Shown in pieces: positions 10,601 through 49,608 of a stretch of 64,000 nt of DNA. Positions within the stretch are counted from its first letter, which is position 1. Every line of letters begins with the position of its first letter. Location of the stretch: positions 1-64,000 of the forward strand of contig MPNB01000006.1 of NCBI GenBank assembly GCA_002238805.1, written 5' to 3'. This DNA is from Rhodothermaceae bacterium bin80. GTDB taxonomy: Bacteria > Bacteroidota > Rhodothermia > Rhodothermales > Bin80. The position numbers and the translations under genes are program-made. The notes beneath the pieces were generated by a model. It was given only the letters and a program-made list of their open reading frames with translations. It was not told where the DNA came from and made no database searches.

Positions 10601-11414
10601 CCTGTCGGCAGCCCTCGCAACCGTAAATCAAGCATTAATTCTAAGAAATACGCATGACGGGAGTAGCAAGTGGCTGGATTGGTTGATTCTCCCTGAATTG
10701 GCCGTTCATCCAGAGGACATTCATGCCTGTCTAATTCCCTTCGCACGGGCTCACAAGGCGATTATTCTTGCCGGACTGACTTACGAAGAAATTTTTAAGG
10801 GCGAACCGCTCGTTAACTCGGCTCTGTGGATCATTCCAGAGCATTCGAAAGCACATGGACTGCAGATTCGGATTCGTCGTCAAGGAAAGCTCCATCTTGC
10901 TAAAGGCGAGCGTGCATTCTATAACAATTATAGAAAGCTAGTCCAAGGATTTCGGCCCTGCCAATGGCTGATCGGGTATCCATGGTCGGATGACCCCAAT
11001 GACACGCCGCTTTGGCTCACGGCTGCAGTGTGCTACGACGCGACGGACCTCACATTGGTTTCGGACCTCAGAGATCAGTCTGACATATTTGCAATTCCTG
11101 CACTCAATAAAGATGTAGGTACCTTCGACCAGATGGCTATGGCCCTCCACTATCATATGTTTCAGTATGTAATCGTAGCTAACAATGGGAAATACGGAGG
11201 CAGTAATGCATATTTCCCGCACAAGAAACCTCATGTTAGACAGGTTTTTCATACTCACGGTCAACCGCAAGCCACGATCTCGTTTCTTGATATTGATAAA
11301 ATATCCAAATTCCAAAAGCGTAAGGATGTATCGGCCAACATAGTAACTGTCACCAAAGAGAAAGCACTGAGCAATGATCATAAATACCCCCCTGCTGGCC
11401 AAGCAAGATATTAA
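7662..11414 (+). CDS. Reverse transcriptase-nitrilase fusion, DRT type 1 (UG1)-like
   Basis: 1250-aa single-gene candidate phage-defence protein. The N-terminal third is a reverse transcriptase: motif A HTDLEKFYD (Asp206), the LPQG block (LPQGLVASGFFANLVL, about 270-285), and the catalytic YVDD at 314-317, followed by GLKLSKKKTEIVE. A long helical region (about 420-930) follows. The last 300 residues are a carbon-nitrogen hydrolase (nitrilase) domain with a complete triad: Glu1012 in LILPELAVH, Lys1092 in NNYRKLVQG and Cys1124 in AAVCYDATD. An RT joined to a C-terminal nitrilase is the architecture of the unknown-group UG1 (DRT type 1) defence RTs, and the length fits. UG5 RTs also carry nitrilase domains, so subtype should be tested. 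Flanked by defence relics, it is the best-preserved gene of the island. No retron-like msr/msd is visible. Confidence 0.85.
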   Translation: MAVKYLEPRLELLREEYVLIQAWKKTAAYIRYHNSFADTLALDRAAANLPKFLGKLRDRLKSSEIWENQRIRIVPAPKSQDWKVQKKRWKPKKDGAPVALRPLGHVNLEDQVVATALMLCLADRVEKRQGDPRKKIDNLESRKQVISYGNRLFCDQIDGDLRHRWGSSKLYRAYFKDYRTFLSRPKTTIQSISEMGGQSTYVIHTDLEKFYDLVRPNLLGEATEQLRYSDDDPKFFSFLESVFNWEWASDDQDDAKKYAVESGIDDFGHIALPQGLVASGFFANLVLLSFDDELRAKIGKEIFDGILLVDVCRYVDDLQLVLAVDNKTQYDSPGDLKNRVFLWMNQKLEKTSPGLKLSKKKTEIVELGGETPHLLAQSAKMERIQTAISGGFDAHGGEEILDAILGMLRSQTEIKLGKNKELKLTPDVRDVTVARFAARRYRKTFRSTRLLLPDKADTSLPDPLPKLRSRTELDQEAKRFAFGLIQRWINDPSNVLLMRIGLDLWPDVKVLEYILTLLRPFTEDNDLPPEQRQIAWYCLSEILRAGATETGLVPDRESLPSGVCLKSYREELHKEATRLAELPEEKIPWYLRQQALLFLATCAPNTTSIEYPESASEEIQKYWEMIQFLHGGKLNLSDSEFATLAVLTRRAFLDHNQTLKLIGNDLNKARIEAIAGRDPSFALDLLNAGAGSEIVNDLPAQIRQDLCLISKNSGKKTLANEISGQPPLGGRLRNELSLLRFANAFLKKWSQQEPAPRVITPSQITLKLVENADNRIKEVEVRKLNILPGDEDDSSASIYSIPSWCDDGDRWRMQLGFLLRFILSGDPDFTQHIRPTHWTESESTYRPVRSHRYLRLYGLYNGQSAFGDNWLPITDWFEKFLLTLLHWPGCRTPKEFEWITKGIKATKIKIQERIDKLKNHHGSASQTLILPLRIKQPTERDRKRPMRACVVQTVFPSNDEFKADDLALKDSQIRQKHRQHLSAALATVNQALILRNTHDGSSKWLDWLILPELAVHPEDIHACLIPFARAHKAIILAGLTYEEIFKGEPLVNSALWIIPEHSKAHGLQIRIRRQGKLHLAKGERAFYNNYRKLVQGFRPCQWLIGYPWSDDPNDTPLWLTAAVCYDATDLTLVSDLRDQSDIFAIPALNKDVGTFDQMAMALHYHMFQYVIVANNGKYGGSNAYFPHKKPHVRQVFHTHGQPQATISFLDIDKISKFQKRKDVSANIVTVTKEKALSNDHKYPPAGQARY

Positions 11415-35001: not shown

Positions 35002-35280
35002 GGGAATTACATATTGTACCAAATTCTAGCAATTTTGAAACTTATTGGTACAATTTAACAGGGTACAAAAAGCATTTAATTGTACCGATGAAAGACTGTC
35101 TTAGCGTTTCAGAGTTCTACAAGAAGTTTCCCGGTGAAAATACGTGCCGGAGCTATATTGCGCAACAGCGCTGGGGGAGTGAACCTGTTTGCCCTCGCTG
35201 TAGCGGTACTAAGGTTTGGCAAATCAACGGCTTTAGTACAATTAGGTATCTAATTCCCTACTATGTAATTCCCTATCATT
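35002..35280 (+). mobile_element. Left IS1595-type relic, internally deleted
   Basis: The terminal sequence GGGAATTACAT plus TTGGTACAATTTAACAGGGT and the flanking bases recur inverted at the right end of the region (37402 down to 37330). About 60 codons of transposase follow (35088 onward, MKDCLSVSEFYKKFPGENTC with the first half of a zinc ribbon, CPRC), then unrelated A+T-rich sequence with TAATTCCCTA repeated near 35250-35275, possibly a remnant right end. It is too short to be active and looks like a MITE-style deletion derivative. Confidence 0.7.
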
Positions 35281-35297
35281 TGATTCTCTATCCTTAG
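35088..35297 (+). pseudogene. IS1595 transposase N-terminal fragment
   Basis: Only the opening 40-45 residues match the IS1595 transposase at 37310; after CSGTKVWQI the reading (NGFSTIRYLIPYYVIPYHL) is junk to a stop at 35295-35297. The catalytic DDE domain is missing. Confidence 0.7.
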
Positions 35298-35388
35298 CTT
35301 GGCAGTGCCGCACATTCTGCCCAATCCGATGAAGAACCACGTAGTGAACACGCCCTCCGCCAATGCAAGGATTGTACTGTACGGAACC

Positions 35389-36546
35389 ATGATCCGAGTG
35401 GCCATTTACGGGTTATTGATGCCCGCTGCCACGCTCGCTGCTCAGACGATAGTCGAGAGTGAAGATCCAGGTCGCCCCGACTTGATCCTGTCGGACGAGC
35501 CGTTGGTGCGTATCGGTGTCCTTGAAGGTCCGATGGAATACATGTTCGGGGAAGTAACCAGCGCGATTCGGCTCGAAGATGGGAGCGTGGTTGTGACGGA
35601 CGAGCAGAGCTACGAAGTTCGGATGTTCGATGCCGGTGGTCGGCACGTGTGGACGAGCGGACGGCAAGGCGAGGGACCGGGAGAGTACGGGGGACTCCGG
35701 TTGCTGCGAGGCTGCCCGGGAGCCGCGGTCACGGTTTTCGACTGGCATCTGGACCGAATTACCGAACTCGACGCGGAGGGCAACGTGACCGACACACGGA
35801 GGCTCGGCGAGGTCGGAGTGAATCCGTATAGCGAGCCCATGTGCGCGCCCGATGCCAGCTTAATCTTCACGCCTTGGCCGGAAACGGACTACGCATCCTT
35901 GACGATGGGCGAGATCTACCGCTGGAGCATGTCGCTGAACCGATCGAGGGGTGACAGCGTGATGGTCCTGCGTTCCGGGATACCCGGTACAGAGCGTTTC
36001 TTTTATGGCGGGGGCACCGGGCCAAGGGAGTGGGGAAAGGCCATGGTCTTCGCGGCGACTGGCACCGGCGTGTGGTACGGATCGGGAGACGACTACGAAC
36101 TCGAACATGTTGACTGGAGTGGTCGTGTCACGCGCATCGCGCGGTGGGCCGGGCCGGACCGGGAGGTGACAACCGAGCATCTCGACCGCTACCTGAGTGC
36201 CTACCTAGCTCGGTACGACACACCTGCGGAGCGCCAGCGCTTCGAGAGCGAGCGCTGGCGGGACATTCGGAATGACCTGCCGGAGCGGTTCCCCGCCTTT
36301 GAAGCGGACGGGCTCATAGCGCTGCCGGACGGCAGTCTGTGGGTCACCACCTTCGGCTGGCGGTCGCCGGACCAGGAACTCCATCTGCTGCACCCAAGCG
36401 GTAGTTGGGTGGCTCGCCTCGTTATCCCCGCGCGCTCGACGCTGCTGGACGCTGGGCCGGACTGGATGCTCCTACTGGAGCGCGGCGAATTCGGTGAGCA
36501 CAGCGTGGCCGTGTACGAGTTGGTGGAGGCGGGCGATGCCGGTTAG
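35389..36546 (+). CDS. Secreted 6-bladed beta-propeller protein
   Basis: 385 aa from ATG 35389, which begins a signal peptide (MIRVAIYGLLMPAATLAAQT); a frame start at 35299 would add 30 residues. The body resembles 6-bladed beta-propeller (NHL-like) proteins: EDGSVVVTDEQSYEVRMFDA, GGRHVWTSGRQGEGPGEYGG and ADGLIALPDGSLWVTTFGWR. The SGRQGEGPGEY motif is common in secreted propellers of Gemmatimonadota and related soil or marine bacteria. The gene is clearly richer in G+C than its surroundings and lies between two inverted IS1595-type relics, so acquisition from another lineage is likely. No catalytic role is visible. Confidence 0.75.
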   Translation: MIRVAIYGLLMPAATLAAQTIVESEDPGRPDLILSDEPLVRIGVLEGPMEYMFGEVTSAIRLEDGSVVVTDEQSYEVRMFDAGGRHVWTSGRQGEGPGEYGGLRLLRGCPGAAVTVFDWHLDRITELDAEGNVTDTRRLGEVGVNPYSEPMCAPDASLIFTPWPETDYASLTMGEIYRWSMSLNRSRGDSVMVLRSGIPGTERFFYGGGTGPREWGKAMVFAATGTGVWYGSGDDYELEHVDWSGRVTRIARWAGPDREVTTEHLDRYLSAYLARYDTPAERQRFESERWRDIRNDLPERFPAFEADGLIALPDGSLWVTTFGWRSPDQELHLLHPSGSWVARLVIPARSTLLDAGPDWMLLLERGEFGEHSVAVYELVEAGDAG

Positions 36547-36559
36547 CTCGGATGGTCGG

Positions 36560-37310
36560 ATCGGGCCTGTCACCAATCGGAAAACCGAATGGGAGCTCTC
36601 TCCCCTCAATGACCGAGACATCGTACTCATCCGCGCTATGTTTGAGGGCATGGTGATCAAACGCCATATTCAGCCCGATATACGCTCTGTGTTCATCAGC
36701 ATAAACGGATGAACATTCCTCTACGGTCTCCTCAATATTCGGGGCAACATAGCCTTACTCGTCTTGTCTACGTGCATTGTAACGACGGCCCCGCTATGCT
36801 CCCGCAACCCGATTACAGCTGCTTTGCCAACGGTGCCTACACCAGCGTTTTGACGCTTGGAAACGTGCTTATTCTTCCCCTTGCCACCGAAATAGGTTTC
36901 GTCTATTTCCGCCTCACTAGCCAGCATCTGTTTTCTGTATCGCAAGCCTTACGGATGCGATGCTCCGTGAACCACGCTGTTTTCTGGGTAATACCCACTT
37001 CCTTTGCAAACTGGATACTGGAGAGTCCTTTCCGCGCAGTAGTCATCAGATAGGTTGCAAATAGCCATTTCTGCAATGATACCCTGGAATTCTCCATGAC
37101 CGTACCAGTCCGAACGCTGAACCTGCTTTTGCTGGCTGGACAATCCCCGCATTTGTACTGCATCCTGCCCTTGATTTGCCAAACCTTAGTACTCCCACAG
37201 CGAGGGCAAACAGGTTCACTCCCCCAGCGCTGTTGCGCAATATAGCTCCGGCATGTATTTTCACCGGGAAACTTCTTGTGGAACTCTGAAACGCTAAGAT
37301 AGTCTTTCAT
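36560..37310 (-). pseudogene. IS1595-family transposase, frameshifted and truncated
   Basis: The reading starts at ATG 37310 with the zinc-ribbon front (CPRCGSTKVWQIK, YKCGDCP), then FAKEVGITQKTAWFTEHRIR. A shift near 36940 is required to continue as EAEIDETYFGGKGKNKH (first Asp of DDE) and RQNAGVGTVGKAAVIGL. A second shift near 36740 leads to SSVYADEHRAYIGLNM (second Asp) and HHALKHSADEYD. The expected NGIES segment with the catalytic Glu is absent, and the reading runs into the propeller gene flank. It is inactive. Confidence 0.8.
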
Positions 37311-37402
37311 CGGTACAATTAAATGCTTTTTGCACCCTGTTAAATTGTACCAAAAAGTTTCGAAATTGCAAGGATTTGGTACAGTTTAAGGATGTAATTC
37401 CC
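36590..37402 (-). mobile_element. Right IS1595-type relic
   Basis: The element runs inward from the inverted end at 37402 (GGGAATTACAT outermost, then TTGGTACAATTTAACAGGGT at about 37341-37360) and holds a nearly full transposase gene whose 3' end merges with the 3' flank of the propeller gene. The inner terminal repeat is not recognisable, so this copy is truncated. The two relics are inverted, as the ends of a composite structure. Confidence 0.7.
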
Positions 37403-37418
37403 TTGATTTTGTTCAATC

Positions 37419-37790
37419 ATGAAGATAGAGCCGCCATACGGATTACGACAACGCGTAGGCCTGTTCCTGGGTCCAATTTGGCTGTTGGCGGCGCTTGTGC
37501 TTCCTCCCCCGAGCGGACTGGTACTGGAAGCCTGGTACACAGCAGGCGCAACTCTATTGATGGCCACATGGTGGATCGCTGAATCTATCCCAATTCCCGC
37601 AACTTCCCTTCTCCTGTCTGTACCTGCAGTCCTGGAAGTCGGTTATACGTTTCATCTACCCGTTGCTACGCTCTCCCAATGCCACCGTTCATGGCAATGA
37701 CGCGTCGTGGTCTTCGAAATGACACGTGCAGGCTTTGTGTCAATTTTACCATCCTTGCGCTGATAACTGTTTGTGCGTACCCTATTAAGT
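37419..37790 (+). pseudogene. SLC13 transporter relic, internally deleted
   Basis: The first 61 codons (YGLRQRVGLFLGPIWLLAAL ... WWIAESIPIPATSLLL) match the start of the intact transporter at 48112 at close to 90% of bases by eye. At about 37610 the match jumps to the C-terminal part: AVLEVGYTFHLPVATLSQ corresponds to ALGASCAFMLPVATPPN near intact residue 425, followed after a frame break by VFEMTRAG. About 1.1 kb is missing. Transport function is lost. It is in the same orientation as the intact gene 10 kb away. Confidence 0.85.
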
Positions 37791-37884
37791 GCCTAGGGAA
37801 TTAGAGTTGACGCAAAGTTATCCAGACTGAACGATGCGATATAATAGGATGTTGCATGGCCACGACTATGTCGAGGTTTTGAAA

Positions 37885-38466
37885 CTAATCGGTCTGTATT
37901 TTACCATAAAAGTAACCCTGAAGATCGTCCATCCATAGATTGTTAATCGTACTCTTTCCAGCACCACCATCCGTCAACCTTATATAAAACCGACAGCTTC
38001 CACGAACATCTCCATTCCCTGCTCTGTATGCTTTGTCGCGAAGTATTTTCAGAGTATCCAGGTTGATCTCTTGCCCATGAAGCCCCCCGAGGTAATTGTG
38101 CAAGTCAAGCCATCTCTGTCGAACCTTTGGATTCTGTGCATATTCGATATTATACCTTGCTCGTGAACGCACATCAATCGTCATCAGTAATTGGGTGTTT
38201 TCGTTTTTATCCTTCATACAATGAGGAGCTCCCGGTCCAATGTCCTCCTCCAGTTCTTTGATTTTGTCATTGAGAGCAACTATACTGACATTGAGACTAG
38301 CTATACTGTCATTGAGGCTAGCTATACTGTCGAGAAGTACTTTACCACCATCTTTCGAAGTCTTGACATAGTAAATTCCACCCAGAAGAATGCCAGTCAC
38401 TGTAATTGCAGTCATTAAATCTGCAATGGCAGGCCAGACTGTGATCTGCGTCCGGTATCTCCGCAT
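37885..38466 (-). CDS. MotB/ZorB-like single-pass membrane protein
   Basis: 193 aa. The N-terminal helix WPAIADLMTAITVTGILLGG carries ADLMTA, matching the ADxMTA segment of MotB-type stator proteins whose Asp conducts the proton or sodium ion. Residues about 45-75 are a repetitive coiled coil (SIASLNDSIASLNVSIVALN). The rest has a Cys pair (PHCMKD, GSCRFY) and does not look like the OmpA peptidoglycan-binding domain found in MotB and ZorB. The start overlaps the stop of the ZorA-like gene (TAATG), so the two are translationally coupled, as expected for motor subunits. It is the last gene of the operon. Confidence 0.65.
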   Translation of the reverse strand: MRRYRTQITVWPAIADLMTAITVTGILLGGIYYVKTSKDGGKVLLDSIASLNDSIASLNVSIVALNDKIKELEEDIGPGAPHCMKDKNENTQLLMTIDVRSRARYNIEYAQNPKVRQRWLDLHNYLGGLHGQEINLDTLKILRDKAYRAGNGDVRGSCRFYIRLTDGGAGKSTINNLWMDDLQGYFYGKIQTD

Positions 38467-39932
38467 TATTGTCGCTTCTTTTCAATTGTTTGGATAAGTT
38501 CCTTAATGAATTCAATCAGATTGTCCATAGTTATATCCATTCCTGCGTGTGTCTTCTGCATTGTTTTTAGCAACTTCTCCGTCTGACCAACAACGGGCAT
38601 CAGCGCTTCATTCGTAGTGGATTGTAGTGTTTCATTAATACTGACTGTGACTTTCTTCAATTCTTCGGGGATTTCCGAAAGTGTATTTGCTGACTGCTGG
38701 AGATTTGTGCCGAACTGTTTCGCTGCAGCAGGCATTTGCTCAGTCGTCCCTTCCAGATACGAACCCATCCTCTTAAGAGGCACAACGATCTGTTCATCAA
38801 CATCACGCCTCAAAGCCTCAAAGATATCCCCCACGATTGTACTACTCTGACTGACAAACCAATTCTTTAATTTTTCCTGATTCTCTGCTATCATCCCGGA
38901 TAGTTCTGTCCTTTCCCTCCTCAGGTCATCTATTTCTTGCAGAAAAGCATCTCTTAAGGCCTGCACATGTCTCTCTGCCGCCCTTCCGAAGATATTGTCA
39001 AGACCCTCAAGCGAGTCTCGAATATTATTCGGCAACGGCTCCAACATTCCTTTAAGCTCGACGAGAAAGTCTTCGGTAATCCTCTGTAGATCGTCTTGGC
39101 CTTCTTTCATGGCTTTGACCAATTTTCCCTGTCTCTCGGAACGGTTTTTTATATCCGTAAGGAGTTCCTTGATTGCATTCACGAAACTGTCCTGACCATC
39201 CTCAATCCTATTCTCCCAAGCACTGCATGACCCATCTATAATTTCCTCTAGACGCTCCGGCAATGTACCCATTGGAGCGATCGTACTGGCCAAATGATCG
39301 GTTGCAGTTGTTATCCCTTCTGCTGCACTCGTCAAGTTCTTGATACCATCTGAAGTTTGCAGCTGCACGCGTTGCATCTCATCCTGACTATCCAAAACTT
39401 TTTGGGCAAAGGACTGCATAACTTCGACAAAAATAGTTAGACCGCCCAGATCCCCGTTTCCCATTAGAGAAGGGATTTTGAATGTGCTTTCTTTCTCTAT
39501 TATGGCTTCAGCCTTCTCAGCCACCTTATCTTGCGTGGCGGGCAAAATCCGCAGTACAATTAAGAGATGACACCCAAGCCCCACCAAACTTGAAAACAAG
39601 GCAAAAATGATACCCCAGACTATACTCGATTCCATGGAATCTGGCATGGAATCGGCATCTAGGCTTAGAAACGGCATGAATCCAATGATTCCAATAACAA
39701 ACAAAAGCATTGTTCCACCAATGCCAATAACCAAAGCGGCATTGGAAAACCTTCTGATGCCATCTAGATAAGATTCCCCCAATCGATCAAACTGATCGAT
39801 TGTTAGGTCCTTGCGTACGCCAATTTCCTCCAGCAGGTCGTCCGAAGCTTGCTTGGCTCTCCGGAAATTATTCCATTGGAGAAATATCAACACAACGAGT
39901 GCAGGGATCTCTACTACGATGACTGTCCCCAT
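38466..39932 (-). CDS. MotA/ZorA-like channel protein with long coiled-coil tail
   Basis: 488 aa from ATG 39932 (a TTG at 39950 is the alternative). Transmembrane segments: VIVVEIPALVVLIFLQW at the front, then after about 50 residues ALVIGIGGTMLLFVIGIIGF and SSIVWGIIFALFSSLVGLGC, the hydrophobic pair typical of the MotA/TolQ/ExbB channel fold. From about residue 170 to the end the protein is an extended amphipathic coiled coil rich in Glu, Gln and Leu (EMQRVQLQTSDGIKNLTSAA), comparable in plan to the intracellular tail of ZorA. With the MotB-like partner it should form an ion-driven stator complex in the inner membrane, with the tail in the cytoplasm. Confidence 0.7.
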   Translation of the reverse strand: MGTVIVVEIPALVVLIFLQWNNFRRAKQASDDLLEEIGVRKDLTIDQFDRLGESYLDGIRRFSNAALVIGIGGTMLLFVIGIIGFMPFLSLDADSMPDSMESSIVWGIIFALFSSLVGLGCHLLIVLRILPATQDKVAEKAEAIIEKESTFKIPSLMGNGDLGGLTIFVEVMQSFAQKVLDSQDEMQRVQLQTSDGIKNLTSAAEGITTATDHLASTIAPMGTLPERLEEIIDGSCSAWENRIEDGQDSFVNAIKELLTDIKNRSERQGKLVKAMKEGQDDLQRITEDFLVELKGMLEPLPNNIRDSLEGLDNIFGRAAERHVQALRDAFLQEIDDLRRERTELSGMIAENQEKLKNWFVSQSSTIVGDIFEALRRDVDEQIVVPLKRMGSYLEGTTEQMPAAAKQFGTNLQQSANTLSEIPEELKKVTVSINETLQSTTNEALMPVVGQTEKLLKTMQKTHAGMDITMDNLIEFIKELIQTIEKKRQ

Positions 39933-39934
39933 TT

Positions 39935-41347
39935 CTATCGCCCTCCGCAATCCAGTGGTGGAAAAGGCGCAATAGTTGCTATATACTTGTCAGGACGCAA
40001 AGCATCAGTAAACTGGCCGAGATGAAATGTCGACTCAATGCCGCACCTAGTGGAAGACCATGCACTCCAATCAACCACCTCAGATACGTTGTAACTCAAC
40101 TCTGCGGTTACTTTACTCTTCTCCGCTATTATGATTCCATCATCATCACAGGTCTTGGTGGTATCCGCTTCTTCTCGCTGCTCGTCCTCATGAATTATGC
40201 GGTACACAGATCTACAGTTGAGCTCAAGGTTTACCTGTGATTTATCACTTTTTTGCAGCCTCGTGATCGTGCTGGAAATACCAATTGAATCTATTGGGCG
40301 TGAATCTGCTGGAATTTCGCTTATCGTTATTCGACGGTCTACAAACTTGCCCGTCAATTGAGGTGTCTTCGAGTTGTATCGGCAAGAATACCCTCTTTCT
40401 GGGGTAAGCTCCGCAAGTCTTGGACTACTCTCTTCCAAGTCGTGCCAAACGAAATCTACCTCGGTACCCCAATCTAAATCAGAATCCCCCTCGACTGTTA
40501 AAGGGACAAGAGTCATGAACTCATACTTTATACGTTCTTGGCTTATACCTGACTCACGAAGTCCCTCGAGCAGCCCTCCCAAGATTTCGCTAACAAGGTT
40601 GTCTTTTCCCGCATCTCTCTCACTGCTCCGGCCTAGAACAAGGACATAAAGCGGGCTCTTTACGAATTTCTCCAATGGCCGATACCTTTGTTGGCACTCG
40701 TCAAACCAACATCCCAAAGAGCCAGACTGAGCATCGCATGCACCACTGCGTACTCCCCAGTACTCAATTCGAACGCCTAAAAGCGCCATGTGAATTGTGC
40801 CATTGTTAAAATGCTCGTTAAGCGGTGCGAGGTACGGAAGCAGACCAGTAGGTCCGATGCCATGCTCAGTAGTCGCCATCAAGTCGCTAATGAGGGCAGC
40901 ACCCATCATGCTGCCATTCTGGAGGCCCGTAACCAGGTCTTCGATCCCCTCATCTAGACGAGAAGAATTGCCATTAAAAAATTTTCGCAACAGACGTTCA
41001 TTACATTGGATCGGATCAACCGAACTAGTAATTCCGAAACATTGTAGTGTACCCCCGTAACCTGCCCCGAACCATGCTGACTTAAGCAAGTCATGGATAT
41101 TCAGAAGAGCATCCTGACTGTCTGGATTCGTCTCATGTACATATCCTCCCATAGGAACGGATCGATCCCAGAAGAGCTGGAAACTCTCTGGAAGTGAATC
41201 ACTGTTGAAAAAAAACCCGGTCGATCCAGCATCTTCCCAAACAGGCGCAACCTTCGCCTTCACACGGATCTCCACTGAATCTTTCGGTGGGTTCCCACAA
41301 TTAGTAAGCACTATCCCTAAAACGACTATGGATACGACTATACGCAT
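39935..41347 (-). CDS. Putative lipoprotein with vWA-like domain
   Basis: 470 aa from ATG 41347, which gives an export signal MRIVVSIVVLGIVLTNCG; Cys17 is a possible lipidation site (the -3 to -1 residues LTN are atypical). A TTG at 41383 is the longer alternative. Residues about 50-230 look like a divergent von Willebrand A fold: FQLFWDRSVPMGGYV has the spacing of the Asp-x-Ser-x-Ser-Met metal site with Pro in place of the third Ser, then GSMMGAALISDLMATTEHG and MALLGVRIEYWGVRSG. The C-terminal half is beta-rich with paired Cys residues and is unrecognised. It ends 2 nt before the ZorA-like gene. It may be the periplasmic face of the motor. Confidence 0.55.
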   Translation of the reverse strand: MRIVVSIVVLGIVLTNCGNPPKDSVEIRVKAKVAPVWEDAGSTGFFFNSDSLPESFQLFWDRSVPMGGYVHETNPDSQDALLNIHDLLKSAWFGAGYGGTLQCFGITSSVDPIQCNERLLRKFFNGNSSRLDEGIEDLVTGLQNGSMMGAALISDLMATTEHGIGPTGLLPYLAPLNEHFNNGTIHMALLGVRIEYWGVRSGACDAQSGSLGCWFDECQQRYRPLEKFVKSPLYVLVLGRSSERDAGKDNLVSEILGGLLEGLRESGISQERIKYEFMTLVPLTVEGDSDLDWGTEVDFVWHDLEESSPRLAELTPERGYSCRYNSKTPQLTGKFVDRRITISEIPADSRPIDSIGISSTITRLQKSDKSQVNLELNCRSVYRIIHEDEQREEADTTKTCDDDGIIIAEKSKVTAELSYNVSEVVDWSAWSSTRCGIESTFHLGQFTDALRPDKYIATIAPFPPLDCGGR

Positions 41348-41432
41348 GGAAATACTGAATCTTTTGCTTTTGGTAACTGCCAAGCTCCTGGTATACTACG
41401 AGATAACACCTTGATTCTGTTCTGACTGCATA

Positions 41433-41882
41433 TTAAGAACGGTAGCCCCGAAGCGAATTGCGGATACCCTTAGCCTTATTCAGGCATACCTGAAGATCGC
41501 GTAAGATCGCATCCTTTGATCTAGAAGACGACGATTCCCGGTGCAAGATCACAGATAGCGCTCGTAGTCTCCGCCCAATCAAGTCAGGAAAGACTCGAAA
41601 TATGACGAACTGGATCACGCTATAGCTTCTGTATAAGTCAGAGAACTGTGCCCACGTCGTCTTTCCAGATAAAGGCTCTTTCTCCTGCGGGGAAGGGATC
41701 CCGGTCAATCGAGAAATGTCCTCAGTAATGATCAGTACATTTTGCAGGACGAGTAAATCTGTGGAAAGTAGTCGCCTAGGCAACTTTCTGTCCAGGATAT
41801 CAACTGACTGTATGATGCGGCAACCAAACCGAAGCGCCCATGCAGCCATTATACAAGTCACTCGAACCATAATTGGTTTCAT
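41433..41882 (-). CDS. Unrecognised 149-aa protein of the motor operon
   Basis: Mostly helical and basic, with a hydrophobic first 20 residues (VRVTCIMAAWALRFGC) that may touch the membrane. LLVLQNVLIITEDISRLTG and DLYRSYSVIQFVIFRVFPD suggest a helical bundle. I know no family for it. It lies between the giant tubulin/actin-like gene (144 nt away) and the lipoprotein gene (85 nt), on the same strand, and so belongs to the cluster by position. Confidence 0.5.
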   Translation of the reverse strand: MKPIMVRVTCIMAAWALRFGCRIIQSVDILDRKLPRRLLSTDLLVLQNVLIITEDISRLTGIPSPQEKEPLSGKTTWAQFSDLYRSYSVIQFVIFRVFPDLIGRRLRALSVILHRESSSSRSKDAILRDLQVCLNKAKGIRNSLRGYRS

Positions 41883-42026
41883 TTTTATTGAGTCGATAAA
41901 TTAAACCGATACACGCCTCGGACTAGAACTTGGCCTTTGCATTGTCGCTGATCTCTACCAGATATGACCTCCATAGAGCTGAATATCGGAGTTGAGTAAG
42001 CCTGGTGACCCAACTACATGATTCAA

Positions 42027-45000
42027 TCAACCCATAATATTCTCTGAGTTGAACGCGTTTTCCCAAATCAGTGCGGCCACGGGAGCATCCAGTTTACGGA
42101 CGTCTCGAGAACTTTCATCTTTTAGACCTTTATTGATCTTCCGCATGCAGTTATCATCAATTCTTACGGTAACCTTAGGATGCCCTTCCAGCGGATAGTC
42201 TACAAGCAGCGGTGGATCAATTTCCTCCCAAACGTAAAGCTCAACACTCTCTTCGACATTTTCGAACGGCAAAGCATCAAACCAATTCTTTTGTACTCTC
42301 TCTCCCAGATGATCGTCGAATACAAGTTTTGCCAGCGGAAATTTATGACTCCTTTTCAATACATCATTTGGACTCATTTCTTCGCCCACGGCATTCTTGA
42401 TTGGGCCGAGTTTGGGGTCAGACCTACCCTGATCCTCGTGCCATATCTCCGAGTTAAGCTCATTTAGTCCCACATCATTCCAGAAATCACTGGCGCGGCG
42501 CTGAATCCGCTCCTTGATCTTGCTCTGAATCTCTATATAATCGCTGCTGTCATACCAGAGACGCCACCCATTACCCTGGATCTGAACAACAATCTTCAAA
42601 TCCTTGCGGTCTTGTTCATTTTCAAGTTTTGGCCAAATATCTTTCCCAATGTAAGCGACAAGGCTCCGTGCCAAAAAGTCTGTGATGAACCAAAAGTAGC
42701 GATGAATCAGTCGAACCGCCGTCTCCTTACGCTCCCTACCTTCAGCAGAATTTTCAAAACCTTCAAGCCCTAGATATTCAGACTTACTATTCCAGAGGGC
42801 GATATGAAATAATTGTTCTGACCCCATCGAACGCATCCATGCCCGCAGATTCATGAGACAGGCATCCGAATTATTAGCCTGCTTCCAACCTCTGTCCTTC
42901 GGCAGGCACGAGTCTGCCTTTTTTGCCAGCGTTTCTAGAAGTAAGTGGCCACCCAACTTTACACTATCTGCCACCTCCCCAAATTTGTTTCTTTTGCCAT
43001 CCTTTACCTCACCATCAGAACAAGAGAGTAAAATATCCAGAGTTCTGCCCCCCAAATCCGCCACAAGCTTCACTTCCAGCTTATCTCTTGTCCCCATTGC
43101 TTTCTTAGCAGCGTGGGATTCGCTATATAATCCTGAACCAACAAGCTCAGCTTCGCATCCAAGATCTTCCCTGATGCACTTGAGTACTTCTTGGATTGAT
43201 GTCTTGTATTTCTCAGTATCCCTCGTGGATGTGCCGCGCAACGGATACGTGAATGTGAACTCAATCTTCTTGGGTACTTGCCCTAACTTTCTGATAATAT
43301 CGGCCACGAAAACTTCGATAGCCATGCGAAGATAACACTTGCGAAGCCAAGGCTCTTTCCCCTTAAAACCACGCTGTTTAGTCTCCCACTTAAATCCAGA
43401 TAGTACGTGCGCACTTCCATCAGATCTCCGCAACCTCACATTAGGGATCGCATAGTGTGTCATGGGCTCCCACTCATCTTCAACTCTTCCTGATTCTAGA
43501 GTATCAAGCTTTTGGGTGGCCCACAGATCTGATGACAACAACGATTTTGAAGTGCCTCCATTTTCTTTTTCAGAATATGTAGGTCGCCATGTATCCAGTT
43601 GCATCGCGGGGTCAGGTTCATTTGGCCAGTTTTCACTAATGTGCAACGACAGTTTTTCCTTATCGGGAATATCAGGAACCAACTCAGCAGCGAGATCAAC
43701 CGTTTGGGCACCCTCCTTGTTTTTCTTCTCCACAGCAGCCACGGTGTGCGAAGTACCAAAGTCTACAGCAAGCTTCCATGAGTCATCGGCTTTTGAAAGT
43801 TCTTCCAAAGCAATTAGATAAATACCTACATCTTCCTTTATATCATGATCGTAAGCACACAAAGCCACAGGCGGGCCTCCCACATGTCGACTTTTTTTGA
43901 CATCAAATTTTACGGGATGGCTGGGGCCAAACCCCTCTGGAGGACCTGATTGCAACCTGGACAAAGCACCACCCTTCTCAGAATTCTCATATATCGTACG
44001 AACTTCCAGTGATTTCTGTGTCGAGTGACTATAGACATAGTAGGCCCTCCACGAGTCTTCATTTCTCTTGGTTCTGAAATTGGGCCAGATCATCCAATGA
44101 GCCCGTGCTCGTTTTTCTGGACGAACTGTGATCTTGACCGGTTTGCTTCTCCCCCTGAGATTAAGTGTCCAACATACCTTGTCATCCTTAACTTCGCGCT
44201 TAATGGTTTCTATGCTCTTATTGGTCAAATTGTCGATTAATACTTCTCCTTCACCTCCTTGCCTACTCTTATCTGGGGACACCACCAGCCCGATGTAATC
44301 TGGACGAAGTGGGATATCTGGATAAATGAGTTCTTCCGCACTGCATTTGGATCCAGGAACTGGTTGCTGCTCAAGCGGAACGCAGATCCGTATTTTGATC
44401 GCATCTATGTCAATCACACGGATATTATCAACATAGATCGTATTCTCTAAGTCTTCCTTGATCCAAATTTGGTTTTTCGCCTCATTCCTTCCCCATGCGA
44501 AAATTTTTCCCTGCTTTTGGATTTCATCTAAATGTCTCTTCCAAATCATATGCACGGGATGAGGAAGACCCGGCATGCGAAAATCTTTGACCAGCTTGAA
44601 CCCCCCGATCTCTTTGAACTCTGGAACTCTCTTGATAAGCTCATCTACCTGCTCTCCATCCGCATCTGAGCCATCGGGGAGAAATGTGGACTCACCCTCT
44701 ACTGGCAACGGAATTTCCCATGATTCATCTCCCAAACGAATTGAGAGATGTTCTGCAATCCCAAACGATCCAACCTTATCCTTGCAACGCTCACTCAGAA
44801 CATCAACTAAAACCAAGCGAGAACCCTTAGGAATATCCTCCGCCAGCCGTTTGACCCAACCTGCAATACAGCTCCAGGTCTTTGCACTTGCTGAACCCAA
44901 TGCACCCCAGCTTTCCGACTCCTTCCAATCCCGCTTCTTCGCATAATCAGTAAGCTCTTCCCATAAGTCGCCCCAGTCGTTGTCTTCAACGCTTGCCGCG

Positions 45001-46913
45001 GGACAGAGCAACGTATATGGCGAATTAAACCCAAATACCTTACCACTCTTACTATGAATAATGTGATGTGTAGCAAGCTCGGGAGTTACCTCTTTGATTA
45101 AACGCGCAAGAGTCAATCTTTCAGAGTCTTCCTCGTCTTTGATTTCTTCTACTTTCAGCACCCCGCGCGCTCGCCCTACCAATAGCATTTCTAGCTTGCG
45201 CAGCACTGTCAATTTTTGCCTCTCTACCTGAAACTTGAATTCCTCGGCCACTGCAATTGGATGCGGCCAACCATTAGGAGAGATGTGCTTATCCTCGAAA
45301 AGAACAGATAGTGCATCAGGAGCTTTTTCAACGGGTTTCAACTGACCCGCGTCTCCTCCCCACTGAGGAGTTACACCGGGTTCGTACTGAGTAGGCCAAT
45401 ACCCTCCTGAATTCGATTGACCTGATTCCGCCCCCCCGACCTCCACCAGTTCATCCCTCCACTCCTCTTTAATCCAACGTGCGATCCAATAGAACAGAGA
45501 CAAAGCAACCCGTTCGGCTTCAATGAGTTTGGGAGAATCCCGCAGAGTGAACGGATTCTTTCTTAGCCGTTCGCGAGTTTTTATCTCAAGTATGAAGCTC
45601 CTTTTGCAAAGCTCCGCCTTCACCGTTTGCCTCTCCACGCCTAATCCGCTTAGCCATTTCAGACTCTCATCGCAGACCTTTTTGATATCCTCGAGTTCGC
45701 TTATAACGTCTCTTACCCTCACCTTCGATACAGAAGATATCTTCTGAAGGATTACAGGTCGTGGAGATTCAGACAATCCATAATTCAAACGATTTTTTAG
45801 ACGTTCAATGCCTCGGGCTGTCCCCTCGTCCGCATTCGCTAGTACTTTAATGAATAAGTCAATAATGTGAACGAGAACTGTCCCTTTGTCAACCAGGTTG
45901 CGCAGTGTAGAACCAGATTCTCCAATTTTTAGATCGCCGGTCAGTTTTGAAGGATTAGATGCCGACATTCCATAGAGCCCCACGCTAAAGGGCTTGTCCT
46001 TCTGAAAATGATGGATAGCTGCCAGCGCAGCGATCGCATGTGCGTAAGAGTCTTCATATGGCTGCTGATTGTCAGCCTCCCACTTACGCGAGACTAACCC
46101 TTCTTCTGGAACTCCTACCAAAACGGAAGCCGCACATTTGGACAAGTCTTCGCCATAGAATGCAAGACCACTCTCCGCGTTATCCCTCATCCTGTTATTG
46201 CGTTCGCCTGCCTTCCTTTCATCCTCCTCAGATTCACCAACCATAGTGAACCAGGTATGGAGCATGACAGCCATGGCAGGATTCCTTTTTTTCGCACACA
46301 AATCAGCAAGCGTAGGGGCAACAGATGATCCTGTCCCACCTACGCCGGACCCAGTGATTACTATGCGATTTTTCGTATCCTCGCAAATGTTAAGCATCCG
46401 GGCGTACTCTGTATCGCGATTCAAAGCATCGCTACCCGCCCCGTTAACATCAAGCTCCTTGAACCTGAAAATCAATGATCCTACAGCAGGCGAAGCCATA
46501 AAACCACGGGAAAAATCTATATCCTGCTGACGTTCGGAGAGAATCAATGGAAGTATCTGAGAATTTTTGAATCTCATCCCACAGGTGTTGTAGGGCGGAT
46601 TGGCCCAACCTTTGGGAGTTGGTTCCACAGTCTTACAATTCGGCAGAATATCAAGACCGAAGGCATCCTGGCAATGATAACGACCTGGATGCGCTTCTAT
46701 CAGATTCCGAACCTTCTGCCATGCCGTGTTTTTTTCTCCTCTGTCGCCGTCGTCTTGATCCACCAAGAATAAATTCGGAAAACGAAACTTCCCTTCTGAA
46801 GTGTCATCGACTGGGGTGTCAAAAAAAGCAAATGGCTCTCCCAATATGTGCAGACGCACCATCGCCAACATAACATGGGCACCTGTTCCTCCACATGCAA
46901 TCAAATAATTCAT
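42027..46913 (-). CDS. Tubulin-like / actin-like (Hsp70-fold) fusion protein
   Basis: 1628 aa. The N-terminus YLIACGGTGAHVMLAMVRL (residues 3-21) and IVITGSGVGGTGSSVAPTL (184-202) fit the first glycine loop and the T4 nucleotide loop of tubulin/FtsZ-type GTPases, in the style of the Tubulin_2 (PF13809) families. Residues about 400-1000 are a mixed region I cannot name. From about 1045 the C-terminal third carries actin/Hsp70 ATPase motifs: phosphate-1 KLAVDFGTSHTVAAVE, phosphate-2 KLVADLGGRTLDILLS near 1285 and a possible adenosine motif VVQIQGNGWRLW. I see no transmembrane segment. A single chain with both cytoskeletal-type NTPase folds is unusual. The only upstream operon gene ends 22 nt before it. 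Expected role: a cytoplasmic regulator or assembly driver of the motor. Confidence 0.8.
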   Translation of the reverse strand: MNYLIACGGTGAHVMLAMVRLHILGEPFAFFDTPVDDTSEGKFRFPNLFLVDQDDGDRGEKNTAWQKVRNLIEAHPGRYHCQDAFGLDILPNCKTVEPTPKGWANPPYNTCGMRFKNSQILPLILSERQQDIDFSRGFMASPAVGSLIFRFKELDVNGAGSDALNRDTEYARMLNICEDTKNRIVITGSGVGGTGSSVAPTLADLCAKKRNPAMAVMLHTWFTMVGESEEDERKAGERNNRMRDNAESGLAFYGEDLSKCAASVLVGVPEEGLVSRKWEADNQQPYEDSYAHAIAALAAIHHFQKDKPFSVGLYGMSASNPSKLTGDLKIGESGSTLRNLVDKGTVLVHIIDLFIKVLANADEGTARGIERLKNRLNYGLSESPRPVILQKISSVSKVRVRDVISELEDIKKVCDESLKWLSGLGVERQTVKAELCKRSFILEIKTRERLRKNPFTLRDSPKLIEAERVALSLFYWIARWIKEEWRDELVEVGGAESGQSNSGGYWPTQYEPGVTPQWGGDAGQLKPVEKAPDALSVLFEDKHISPNGWPHPIAVAEEFKFQVERQKLTVLRKLEMLLVGRARGVLKVEEIKDEEDSERLTLARLIKEVTPELATHHIIHSKSGKVFGFNSPYTLLCPAASVEDNDWGDLWEELTDYAKKRDWKESESWGALGSASAKTWSCIAGWVKRLAEDIPKGSRLVLVDVLSERCKDKVGSFGIAEHLSIRLGDESWEIPLPVEGESTFLPDGSDADGEQVDELIKRVPEFKEIGGFKLVKDFRMPGLPHPVHMIWKRHLDEIQKQGKIFAWGRNEAKNQIWIKEDLENTIYVDNIRVIDIDAIKIRICVPLEQQPVPGSKCSAEELIYPDIPLRPDYIGLVVSPDKSRQGGEGEVLIDNLTNKSIETIKREVKDDKVCWTLNLRGRSKPVKITVRPEKRARAHWMIWPNFRTKRNEDSWRAYYVYSHSTQKSLEVRTIYENSEKGGALSRLQSGPPEGFGPSHPVKFDVKKSRHVGGPPVALCAYDHDIKEDVGIYLIALEELSKADDSWKLAVDFGTSHTVAAVEKKNKEGAQTVDLAAELVPDIPDKEKLSLHISENWPNEPDPAMQLDTWRPTYSEKENGGTSKSLLSSDLWATQKLDTLESGRVEDEWEPMTHYAIPNVRLRRSDGSAHVLSGFKWETKQRGFKGKEPWLRKCYLRMAIEVFVADIIRKLGQVPKKIEFTFTYPLRGTSTRDTEKYKTSIQEVLKCIREDLGCEAELVGSGLYSESHAAKKAMGTRDKLEVKLVADLGGRTLDILLSCSDGEVKDGKRNKFGEVADSVKLGGHLLLETLAKKADSCLPKDRGWKQANNSDACLMNLRAWMRSMGSEQLFHIALWNSKSEYLGLEGFENSAEGRERKETAVRLIHRYFWFITDFLARSLVAYIGKDIWPKLENEQDRKDLKIVVQIQGNGWRLWYDSSDYIEIQSKIKERIQRRASDFWNDVGLNELNSEIWHEDQGRSDPKLGPIKNAVGEEMSPNDVLKRSHKFPLAKLVFDDHLGERVQKNWFDALPFENVEESVELYVWEEIDPPLLVDYPLEGHPKVTVRIDDNCMRKINKGLKDESSRDVRKLDAPVAALIWENAFNSENIMG

Positions 46914-46934
46914 GTTAACTCAGGATCTCTTGAT

Positions 46935-47459
46935 CTAAGTGGTGATTTTCTTTACTGCATAACGAAATACCAAAAAGGGAACCACCAAACCAATCATGCA
47001 TCCGGCAACCAAGCCCAGACTACTCACCAATTTTTGATCGTAGGTACATTCAGCTCCTACGAATAGGAGTATCAGGACAAGCACAATGATCGCAATGATG
47101 ACTGGGGTCAACCAGTTGAAATATGATTGAGGGGGCTCAGATTGAGAAGGGTCCCACTTCTTCAACCTTCGATACTGAATGAAGAAGATCACACCAAAGG
47201 CAATAAGTGACACCAAAAGCGTCGTTCCACCCCAAGACAAAAAGAGTTTTAACGATGTGTAAGCATCTCCAGAGGGACCAAGCTCGCAGAGCCTACCTAT
47301 AGCAGAACACCCGGAAAAGACGAGTGCTAGGACTAAAGCTGCACAGCTACGCCAAAAAAATGGGAGGGGAGAATTTTTATGAATCAGATCGGATCTTAGG
47401 CGCGACGACGATCTGCTCCTAGTTTGGTGGTGGAAAAATCTATACTCGCTAGGCAACAT
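46935..47459 (-). CDS. Small multi-pass membrane protein, first gene of motor operon
   Basis: 174 aa. Hydrophobic segments at about 35-52 (SCAALVLALVFSGCSAIG, possibly a lipoprotein signal if translation starts later), 75-92 (GTTLLVSLIAFGVIFFIQ), 115-133 (VIIAIIVLVLILLFVG) and 147-166 (LGLVAGCMIGLVVPFLVF). The loop between the second and third is basic and proline-rich (YRRLKKWDPSQSEPPQ). No family is recognised. It begins the minus-strand cluster and ends 22 nt before the giant fusion gene. Confidence 0.55.
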   Translation of the reverse strand: MLPSEYRFFHHQTRSRSSSRLRSDLIHKNSPLPFFWRSCAALVLALVFSGCSAIGRLCELGPSGDAYTSLKLFLSWGGTTLLVSLIAFGVIFFIQYRRLKKWDPSQSEPPQSYFNWLTPVIIAIIVLVLILLFVGAECTYDQKLVSSLGLVAGCMIGLVVPFLVFRYAVKKITT

Positions 47460-48111
47460 CAGATAACCGCACTCTTGAACTACTCTTTACATTTGTCCGG
47501 GGGGGCAATATACACCAAATTTGTTTTTTACACTCGTCCCGCATGGAAGACTAGGAACGGTTATGAAGAGATGCCACAATGAGGGATCGTCTGTGGGAAA
47601 TCGGGCGTAATCCGAGGTCCAATTGATCTGAATACTGGCGAAGCCAAAATTGCATCGGTAAAATGAACACAATTGTACGATTCATGGACAGATAATAAGT
47701 CGCGCATACTAGATTTTTTTTTGGTTTCCACACAGGATAGATTAAGGCTAGTTAGTGGTCAATGTTACCGTTTTGGGGTATTCTTTGGCATGCATTCTGC
47801 AATGAGTTTGATCTATTCAGTATTCGTCCCTACAAGGTTATACGTTCTGTAAAACAGCTCGAAAATTGCAGTACACCGATACGATCTTGTTTCCTAACGG
47901 CGGTTTTCATGCTGCCCTACATCAGAGCCCCCAACGTGCGCCAGGTTGCAAGTATGTCCGTATTGGAGAGTGCGGGGTGATTTTTGGAAAACTGTCGAAG
48001 GTAGAGGGTAGAGAACCTCTGAAAATATTGGAGCTGCAGTCCCGTTTTTCTGTGGTAACTTAAGCCTATATCTACAATTTCGATTCGTGGTAGGACCATT
48101 TTTTTGTAACA
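47460..48111. other. Divergent intergenic region with the motor operon promoter side
   Basis: About 650 bp between the start of the motor operon and the SLC13 gene, both transcribed outward. No gene is convincing; short frames show no motif. It should hold promoters for both directions. The A+T-rich stretch at 47680-47730 and the A/T run before 48112 are candidates, but no consensus promoter could be assigned with confidence. Confidence 0.35.
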
Positions 48112-49608
48112 ATGGAGACAACTCCGCCATACGGATTACGACAACGCGTGGGCCTGTTCCTGGGGCCGCTTTGGCTGTTGGCTGTACTCGTACTGCCTCC
48201 ACCAAGCGGACTGGAGCTGGAAGCATGGTACACAGCAGGCGCAGCTCTTTTGATGGCCACGTGGTGGATCGCTGAATCCATCCCAATTCCCGCAACCTCC
48301 CTTCTCCCGCTGATTCTGTTTCCAATTATGGGAGTGAACACAATGCAGGATACCGCAGAGCCCTACGCACATCCTATCATCTTTCTGTTTATGGGTGGCT
48401 TCATCATCGCACTAGGAATGATGCGATGGGATTTGCACCGGCGCATTGCAATCTGGATTATTTCCCGTGCTGGTACGGGACCACGGGCATTGATTGCCGG
48501 ATTCATGGTGGCGACCGCAGGACTGAGCATGTGGGTCAGTAATACCGCAACAACCCTGATGATGCTACCCGTTGCACTCTCTGTCATCGCGCTAGCCGAT
48601 ACTGAGGGAACAGTAGACCAGTTTAAGCACCATTTTGCAGTTGCTTTGCTCCTGGGCGTCGCCTACGCAGCTAACATAGGGGGGATGGGTACGCTCATCG
48701 GCACAATCCCCAACGCATTTATCAGTGCATTCTTCGAAAGTGAGTACGGATACACCATAACATTCACAAAATGGCTTTCGGTCGGTGTGCCAATTGTACT
48801 CATTGGTGTACCCCTGGTATTCTTCGCGATCACTCGATTTCTCTACTCATTTGACAAAAAGGATCTGATTGGAAGTGAGTCGATCATAGCAGAGCAACAA
48901 CAAAAGCTCGGGCCTATGAAGAAGGGCGAGAAAATTGTAGCCGTAGTGTTCACCATTACTGCACTGCTCTGGATAACTCGTCCATTACTTGCTCCCATAA
49001 TCCCTGGGTTGACCGATGCAAATATCGCGATGCTTGGAGGACTATCGCTGTTTGTGATCCCCATCGATTTTAAACGCGGTATCTTCGCGCAGGATTGGCA
49101 TACAGCCAGGAAGCTGCCATGGGGGGCACTCATCCTGATTGGAGGCGGACTGAGCCTTGCGGGAGCCGTTTCGGGTAGCGGTCTCGCTGCGTGGCTCGGC
49201 GAATCACTCCACCCACTTCAGCAATTTCCTACGATTCTTATTGTCCTTATTACAACAGGCGTCATTGTTTTTCTTACAGAGATTACCAGCAATACTGCCA
49301 CCACGGCAACATTCCTGCCGGTGCTCGCAGCTCTCGCCCTGGCCGTTGGAGAGAGCCCCCTGCTTTTGGCTGTGCCCGCAGCCCTGGGGGCTAGTTGTGC
49401 ATTCATGCTACCCGTTGCAACGCCCCCTAACGCTATCGTTTACGGTAGTGGACGCGTAGAGGTCTTCGAAATGGCACGGGCAGGCCTCTTGCTTAACTTT
49501 GCCTTCCTTGTGCTGATCACCGTTTGTGCATACTCTATAGTGCTCTGGGTATTTGGGATTGATGTCGGAATTATCCCAGATTGGGCAGTGCAAAACCACT
49601 CACCATGA
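48112..49608 (+). CDS. SLC13/DASS-family sodium-dicarboxylate symporter
   Basis: 498 aa with about a dozen hydrophobic segments. The two family repeats carry the Ser-Asn-Thr motifs: VSNTATTLMMLPVALSV near residue 143 and EITSNTATTATFLPVLAAL near 400. MATWWIAESIPIPATSLLPL is the characteristic front and LPVATPPNAIVYGSGRV the late motif. Members import succinate, malate, citrate or sulfate with sodium. A truncated paralogue lies at 37419, on the other side of the motor operon. The sugar kinase gene follows after 58 nt on the same strand. Confidence 0.9.
   Translation: METTPPYGLRQRVGLFLGPLWLLAVLVLPPPSGLELEAWYTAGAALLMATWWIAESIPIPATSLLPLILFPIMGVNTMQDTAEPYAHPIIFLFMGGFIIALGMMRWDLHRRIAIWIISRAGTGPRALIAGFMVATAGLSMWVSNTATTLMMLPVALSVIALADTEGTVDQFKHHFAVALLLGVAYAANIGGMGTLIGTIPNAFISAFFESEYGYTITFTKWLSVGVPIVLIGVPLVFFAITRFLYSFDKKDLIGSESIIAEQQQKLGPMKKGEKIVAVVFTITALLWITRPLLAPIIPGLTDANIAMLGGLSLFVIPIDFKRGIFAQDWHTARKLPWGALILIGGGLSLAGAVSGSGLAAWLGESLHPLQQFPTILIVLITTGVIVFLTEITSNTATTATFLPVLAALALAVGESPLLLAVPAALGASCAFMLPVATPPNAIVYGSGRVEVFEMARAGLLLNFAFLVLITVCAYSIVLWVFGIDVGIIPDWAVQNHSP

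Follow-up and report, generated by a model that had tools for sequence, protein, structure and literature searches.

Genes for a ZorA-related motor pair and a giant protein of predicted tubulin and actin folds form one mobile cassette

What might a putative ion-driven membrane motor do in the company of a giant protein that appears to combine a tubulin-like and an actin-like domain? The question is raised by a block of six genes in the first 64,000 nucleotides of contig MPNB01000006.1 of Rhodothermaceae bacterium bin80, the whole stretch being referred to here as the window. We find that the six genes are one unit and that this cassette moves horizontally as an accessory unit. As far as could be tested, and relative to the literature searched, its parts have known folds and the whole is a machine of a new kind: searches of 5.4 million open-access papers turned up no tubulin or actin partners of a ZorAB-type motor and no system of this composition.

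An earlier note on this DNA had read six consecutive minus-strand genes from the sequence, and all six open reading frames (ORFs) lie where it placed them. In transcription order they encode a small transmembrane (TM) protein, the giant, a 149-aa protein, a lipoprotein, a MotA/ZorA-like A subunit and a MotB/ZorB-like B subunit:

37885-47459, minus strand: six-gene block
46935..47459, minus strand: small membrane protein, 174 aa, about four hydrophobic segments
42027..46913, minus strand: giant, a predicted tubulin-like plus actin/Hsp70-like fusion, 1628 aa
45624..46913, minus strand: predicted FtsZ/tubulin-fold domain, giant residues 1-430, with ACGGTGAHV near the N-terminus and GGTGSS at 192-197
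46323..46340, minus strand: GGTGSS, putative tubulin-type nucleotide-binding (T4) loop, with G192, G193, T194 and G195 invariant
42357..43787, minus strand: predicted actin/FtsA/Hsp70-fold domain, giant residues 1043-1519, with DFGTS at 1051, DLGG at 1286 and GNGWRL at 1447
41433..41882, minus strand: helical protein, 149 aa
39935..41383, minus strand: lipoprotein with a degenerate vWA-like motif, 482 aa
38466..39950, minus strand: MotA/ZorA-like subunit, 494 aa
37885..38466, minus strand: MotB/ZorB-like subunit, 193 aa
38419..38421, minus strand: codon of Asp16, the putative motor ion-binding Asp, invariant in 11/11 homologues

The lipoprotein and MotA-like genes overlap by 16 nt and the MotA-like and MotB-like genes by 1 nt (TAATG), so the reported overlaps at the motor end stand. 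The reported spacing of 2 nt is inexact, the other gaps being 21 nt between the small TM protein and the giant, 144 nt between the giant and the 149-aa protein, and 49 nt between the latter and the lipoprotein.

Searches of the six proteins against Pfam, PADLOC and NCBIfam returned almost nothing over curated cut-offs, and our claims are therefore built from relatives, the genomes compared being metagenome-assembled genomes (MAGs). Of the 245 genomes of the class, eight encode the giant, and all eight belong to its own GTDB family, which has 16 genomes; strong matches to a B-subunit profile fall in exactly the same eight. A phylum-wide search with the giant returned members from its own family plus one distant locus (L025) only. 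A collection-wide scan with a seven-row giant alignment added Acidobacteriota (Vicinamibacteria, Thermoanaerobaculia and Holophagales), Gemmatimonadota and a contig-end fragment in a gammaproteobacterial MAG. At all 11 loci with long enough contigs (the window, L013-L017, L029 and L035-L038), the genes run in the order small TM protein, giant, variable ORF, lipoprotein, A and B, with the motor genes following the giant each time; the variable ORF cannot be recognized at every one of these loci. The giant lies in two or three frames in L035 and L037, which may reflect real splitting or assembly error. Pairwise distances of the giant, lipoprotein, A and B proteins correlate at r 0.86-0.98 across eight loci, as expected of parts that travel together. 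Chance is excluded, because the order is conserved in three phyla at low protein identity. The six genes are thus one unit, and the association of giant and motor on which the earlier note had rested its proposal is borne out. From MAG names and a sponge survey (PMC8163846), the carriers seem to come largely from marine-sponge microbiomes.

The giant is the most unusual member of this unit. Across an alignment of 10 loci, its full-length identity is 33-46%, and the giants of 11 loci conserve two GG-T-G loops, one near residues 8-11 and one at 192-195. Its N-terminus, which carries GGTGSS, matches Pfam Tubulin at E = 0.0028, and a hidden Markov model (HMM) built from residues 1-480 finds FtsZ as its top, though weak, match in the PDB. 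The same residues align with six free-standing tubulin-like relatives at an hhalign probability (P) of 98.3% (E 2e-14), and one of these relatives, L025, exceeds the cut-off of Pfam Tubulin_2 (PF13809); in a PF13809 search, the window giant and its genome gave no match. An AlphaFold model of the N-terminal part (mean predicted local distance difference test score [pLDDT], 70) matches FtsZ with a Foldseek E of 6e-5 and a Z of 16 over ~190-210 residues, and the list of structural matches is filled by FtsZ, CetZ, PhuZ and tubulin.

The C-terminal half carries the actin/Hsp70-type motifs DFGTSHTVAA and DLGG(G/R)TLD, of which DFGTS (phosphate 1) and DLGG (phosphate 2) are invariant or nearly so across the giants. 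Residues 480-1628 retrieve Hsp70/DnaK first in a PDB HMM search (E 0.007, around phosphate 2), and the C-terminal part aligns with free-standing actin-like relatives at P 97% (E 8e-11). The AlphaFold model of residues 480-1628 (mean pLDDT 65) matches DnaK in Foldseek at E 9e-9, and residues ~1043-1519 of the model match FtsA, PilM, MreB, Hsp110 and actin at Z 12-13.7 (FtsA 13.7). The structure models rest on 11 sequences, and the fold matches leave the middle of the giant (about 430-1040) uncovered. Judged from these models, the N-terminal domain is an FtsZ/tubulin fold and residues ~1043-1519 are an actin/FtsA/Hsp70 fold, in agreement with the two likenesses first proposed; the motifs suggest that the giant binds nucleotides. 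The closest familiar arrangement is FtsZ with FtsA, which likewise places tubulin and actin folds at the membrane and supplies the best structural matches. Unlike that pair, the cassette carries both folds on a single chain, separated by a middle region of ~600 aa; it is accessory and comes with an ion motor, and sequence identity is only about 10-20%.

We considered whether these domains might instead be switches, in a stress-signaling or protein-quality system in which an Hsp70-type ATPase works with a non-polymerizing GTPase and the motor reports proton-motive force or envelope stress. That Hsp70/DnaK gives the best sequence and Foldseek matches to the C-terminal half agrees with such a system, as does the tubulin domain, where a T7-loop-like catalytic element was not identified: no clear counterpart of the T7-loop acidic residues was recognized in the alignments, and the model is weak beyond residue ~320. 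The structural aligner, however, ranks FtsA and MreB first for the C-terminal domain, and no substrate-binding domain or co-chaperone gene was recognized. We consider this explanation quite improbable.

The A subunit has three predicted TM segments (near residues 3, 68 and 108) and a ~350-aa helical cytoplasmic tail. PADLOC matches between this protein and ZorA were set aside as proof, since they cover mostly the coiled-coil tail, and the TM core was compared separately, with true ZorA proteins from congeners and relatives as references. The core aligns with ZorA over 134 columns at P 80% and E 1.4e-5 (an E-value for a single comparison) and with single ZorAs at P 30-58%. Unrelated multi-TM proteins and shuffled or reversed profiles all gave P <2%; single TolQ and MotA sequences stayed at P <1%, with nothing significant, and TM3 aligns in register with TolQ below significance. 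Against the curated ZorA model NCBIfam NF033916, the subunit scores 15.5 bits, below the cut-off of 250 bits. By this profile evidence, the membrane core of the A subunit is homologous to ZorA. The ExbBD, TolQR, MotAB and GIT-type stators (PMC12505986) share the plan of a three-TM A and a one-TM B subunit, and ExbB/TolQ-type proteins also share a GT-containing TM2 and a TM3 rich in small residues. They differ in that TolQ and MotA go undetected by hhalign where ZorA is found, and in the periplasmic part and the tail.

The B subunit consists of one N-terminal TM segment with the motif W-P-A-x-x-D-L-M-T and a ~110-aa periplasmic part with two invariant cysteines. Over the 11 loci, T9, W11-P-A13, D16-L-M-T19, C83 and C158 are invariant, and Asp16 lies at the position that we take to be equivalent to the TM Asp of MotB and ZorB. 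No OmpA-type or peptidoglycan-binding domain appears among the listed matches of the 11 members. Weak matches of the B profile in another family of the order led to the B subunits of L116 and L117, which match ZorB and MotB/MotD models and carry an OmpA-type domain. Because of the TM motif and these intermediates, the B subunit can be linked to ZorB/MotB, and both motor assignments of the earlier note hold up. A second, diverged MotB-like gene lies between A and B in one locus (L015:9066-9536, G014), and an extra 335-aa gene lies between the lipoprotein and A-subunit genes in another (L013:15055-16062, plus strand, G010).

In 13 lipoprotein homologues the lipobox Cys29, which is preceded by hydrophobic or small residues, is invariant, as are S75 and D167. 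The vWA-like motif reads D73-x-S75-x-P-M-x-G-Y plus D167, and the protein aligns with lipoproteins of a related split-gene family, which have DxSxSM, at P 39% and E 3e-4. Pfam, hhalign comparison with Pfam-positive vWA proteins (L055/L056) and a PDB search gave no support for a vWA domain. Of the description "vWA-like lipoprotein," the lipoprotein half is therefore secure by its invariant lipobox Cys, and the vWA half is a putative assignment, read from the DxSxPMxGY motif and from lipoprotein homologues in which DxSxS and ISDG are intact. The gene for the 149-aa protein keeps its position in most loci while its product ranges from 128 to 359 aa at about 20% identity. Nearly all the loci inspected have the small membrane protein gene immediately upstream of that for the giant.

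Is the cassette then a form of Zorya? The likeness is considerable: a three-TM A subunit with a long helical tail and a TM core homologous to ZorA, a single-TM B subunit with a conserved Asp, overlapping A and B genes, and an accessory, patchy distribution. Zorya needs the ZorA tail, ion flow and peptidoglycan binding (PMC11890865), whereas the cassette B subunit is without the peptidoglycan-binding domain that Zorya requires. The operons are also without ZorC, ZorD and ZorE: PADLOC found no match to any of them among the other cassette proteins, and gene content is the same in all loci. In their place stand the tubulin-actin giant, the lipoprotein and the small TM protein. Lacking the effector genes and a peptidoglycan-binding B subunit and falling under the curated ZorA cut-off, the cassette is, as read from its sequence, not Zorya. 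A conserved unit of motor and tubulin/actin protein, distinct from Zorya, is thus upheld.

A wider family with split genes places the motor in another light. In L116 and L117, the order is B, lipoprotein, small three-TM protein, tubulin, actin, all as separate genes, and no MotA gene was seen at either locus. The L117 lipoprotein has the vWA-type DxSxS motif (DRSLSM) and that of L116 the near form DRSVGM, both with ISDG. Four Bacteroidota loci (L025 and L049-L051) have small-TM, tubulin and actin genes with a lipoprotein and without motor genes; the lipoprotein motif is recognizable in L025 and L050. Compared with their split counterparts, the fused tubulin and actin domains show significant homology, and the lipoprotein shows modest homology (E 3e-4). 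For the small membrane protein, no significant alignment of the two forms was obtained (hhalign P 0.6%), and the equivalence is therefore positional only. Since the Rhodothermales split loci and the motorless Bacteroidota loci share these parts, the constant core of the family is a lipoprotein, a small membrane protein, tubulin and actin, and what sets the clade of the window apart is its ZorA-type motor and its gene fusion. The motor is the variable part, and a description of the cassette as Zorya plus a new effector probably inverts the relationship. A further split-type tubulin (E 2e-62) was seen in another family of the order (L129:6886-8469, plus strand), where antisense ORFs obscure its partners.

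This family also recalls the operons of FtsZl1 (Tubulin_2, PF13809) and vWA proteins with OmpA-domain proteins, for which Makarova and Koonin predicted membrane remodeling in 2010 (PMC2875224). Both have a divergent FtsZ-like protein with vWA-type and TM proteins, and the split relatives add the OmpA-domain protein. In contrast, an actin/Hsp70 partner and a MotA/ZorA motor are absent from the published main text (PMC2875224), and canonical FtsZl1 has a coiled coil and a helical C-terminus, as against a window giant without a PF13809 match. We therefore weighed a machine for envelope remodeling, vesicle formation, secretion or surface motility, in which the motor works on the envelope and a tubulin/actin scaffold guides it. 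It would be a powered version of the systems predicted in 2010 that aids life in a host or biofilm. The split relatives have the parts of an FtsZl1 operon (tubulin, vWA-motif lipoprotein and OmpA-type MotB; PMC2875224), the stator family has non-defense members in ExbBD, TolQR and the gliding motors, and several of the MAG names look sponge-derived (PMC8163846). Set against these points, the A subunit is nearest to ZorA, not to TolQ or MotA, and the genomic behavior of the cassette, described below, fits defense better. This envelope machine, in the general form and as the powered 2010 system alike, is the main rival to defense, and we regard it as rather unlikely.

That behavior is clearest at the insertion site in the window, whose edges are as follows:

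37407..37829, plus strand: degenerate Na+:sulfate symporter copy, left insertion edge
37830..48101: inserted cassette, six genes plus about 0.6 kb of upstream DNA
48112..49608, plus strand: intact Na+:sulfate symporter gene, right insertion edge (Pfam E 1.5e-72)

In two congeners (G002 and G009), an FGGY kinase adjoins the symporter, with window position 35002 joined to 48102, and in a third (G003) nothing but a 2.4-kb element, which has a 217-nt inverted repeat, lies at the junction. The window has this element as well, at 35015-37383, where inverted repeats (217 nt, 94%) flank a 415-aa propeller-like ORF. The presence of the element in G003 and absence from G002 and G009 indicate that the kinase/symporter junction took two separate insertions. 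The cassette insertion holds the six genes only and is absent at the junction in all three congeners. It sits between the intact symporter and a degenerate copy that retains the 5' 208 nt and the 3' end, with the middle deleted; the 5' end of this copy is 86-89% identical to the intact gene, and the left and right copies form a repeat, D1. Cassette G+C is 44-48%, against about 50-54% in most flanks, and no recombinase was found within the insertion. Congener giants are 41-46% identical to that of the window, compared with 78-92% for the flanking symporter, so either different lineages entered the genus or cassette evolution is very rapid. These observations identify the cassette as a horizontally moving accessory unit. 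Second copies of the B gene in one locus (L114, G007:C17:3507-4132) are degraded, with many stops, a sign of past duplication and decay. In G011, an ORF beside the B gene (L118:209-1117, plus strand) has an N-terminus that reads like a tyrosine recombinase (SQNSQEAYRRDV).

A mobile element with cytomotive proteins might use them to segregate or position its own DNA, as TubZ or ParM filaments do in plasmid partition. Plasmids and phages do use tubulin and actin folds for partition, and the cassette is mobile; against this, no DNA-binding adaptor was recognized, no obvious centromere-like repeat array lies beside the cassette, no plasmid or viral copies were found, and no part in partition is known for motor or lipoprotein subunits. 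We consider such a function extremely improbable.

Precise-site gain and loss between close congeners, rapid divergence and decay are the features that fit defense better than an envelope role, and some neighboring genes do so as well. Directly left of the cassette in G005 (L016:3-6988) are a ZorD/DpdE-like SNF2 helicase (E 1e-139), a DNA methyltransferase and a ShosA homologue (E 3e-65), the last of which has the same place in G004. We dropped the possibility that this ShosA-like gene is a housekeeping DprA, as only 4 of 10 congeners carry a ShosA homologue. A T4 RNA-ligase-like gene and a type II methyltransferase lie right of the G006 cassette. Because of the gain and loss, divergence, decay, relationship to ZorA and defense neighbors, we favor motor-coupled anti-phage defense as the most likely role, at roughly even prospects of being right. 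The earlier note had guessed at defense; we still infer it, with better support from the clean empty site and the neighbors in G005 and G004.

Several observations weigh against this role. The window genes nearest the cassette are metabolic, the one neighbor checked in G010 is a metabolic hydrolase, neighbors checked in other loci were unrevealing, and the defense neighbors come from a non-exhaustive survey with no background rate. No nuclease or obvious toxin was recognized among the six proteins, known defense models gave them only weak, mainly coiled-coil ZorA matches, and searches of plasmids and viral contigs returned no cassette copy. An older, perhaps envelope-related role is suggested by relatives that have no motor or whose MotB is of the OmpA type.

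If motor-coupled defense is nonetheless correct, the cassette would encode a single machine spanning the envelope. By their homology, the MotA-like and MotB-like proteins would form a ZorAB-type stator in the inner membrane, presumably ion driven and of 5:2 assembly. The lipoprotein and the cysteine-paired periplasmic part of B may sense or brace the envelope, and the helical tail of the A subunit, by analogy with the ZorA tail, would carry motor movement into the cytoplasm to act on the giant. There, the tubulin-like and actin/Hsp70-like domains may bind nucleotides and, if coupled to the motor, either undergo a conformational change or assemble at the membrane. The motor would be started by damage to the envelope or by entering DNA, and the giant, as effector or scaffold, would put a stop to the infection or to the cell. 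A more specific version, in which a rotary stator triggered by phage breach of the envelope drives or gates a hybrid filament with a GTP-dependent tubulin fold and an ATP-dependent actin fold in each subunit, seems to us distinctly unlikely.

For a conserved bacterial protein to hold a tubulin fold and an actin fold in the same chain is already very unusual, and here strict co-occurrence and operon order tie that protein to a motor pair of the ZorAB kind. The cassette makes it tractable to ask how a stator with no flagellum to turn passes movement to a cytoplasmic nucleoside triphosphatase, a question shared with Zorya. The natural series from a core without a motor, through a core with an OmpA-type B subunit, to a core with the full motor and a fused giant makes the order of assembly testable. 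If the role is defense, this would be immunity powered by a motor, and its effector would differ from the nucleases and helicases of Zorya; if it is not, working parts of the envelope system predicted in 2010 from FtsZl1/vWA operons would have been identified.

Known defense genes also occur in these genomes apart from the cassette. Congeners have genuine Zorya operons of ZorA, ZorB and a third gene, probably ZorC, separate from it:

L100:2543-6740: Zorya operon of a congener
L101:2583-6882: Zorya operon of a congener
L103:2904-7819: Zorya operon of a congener

In the window, the nearest known defense gene seen is 26 kb from the cassette, a 1250-aa Drt1a (DRT1a) reverse transcriptase-nitrilase at 7662-11414 on the plus strand (PADLOC E = 0).

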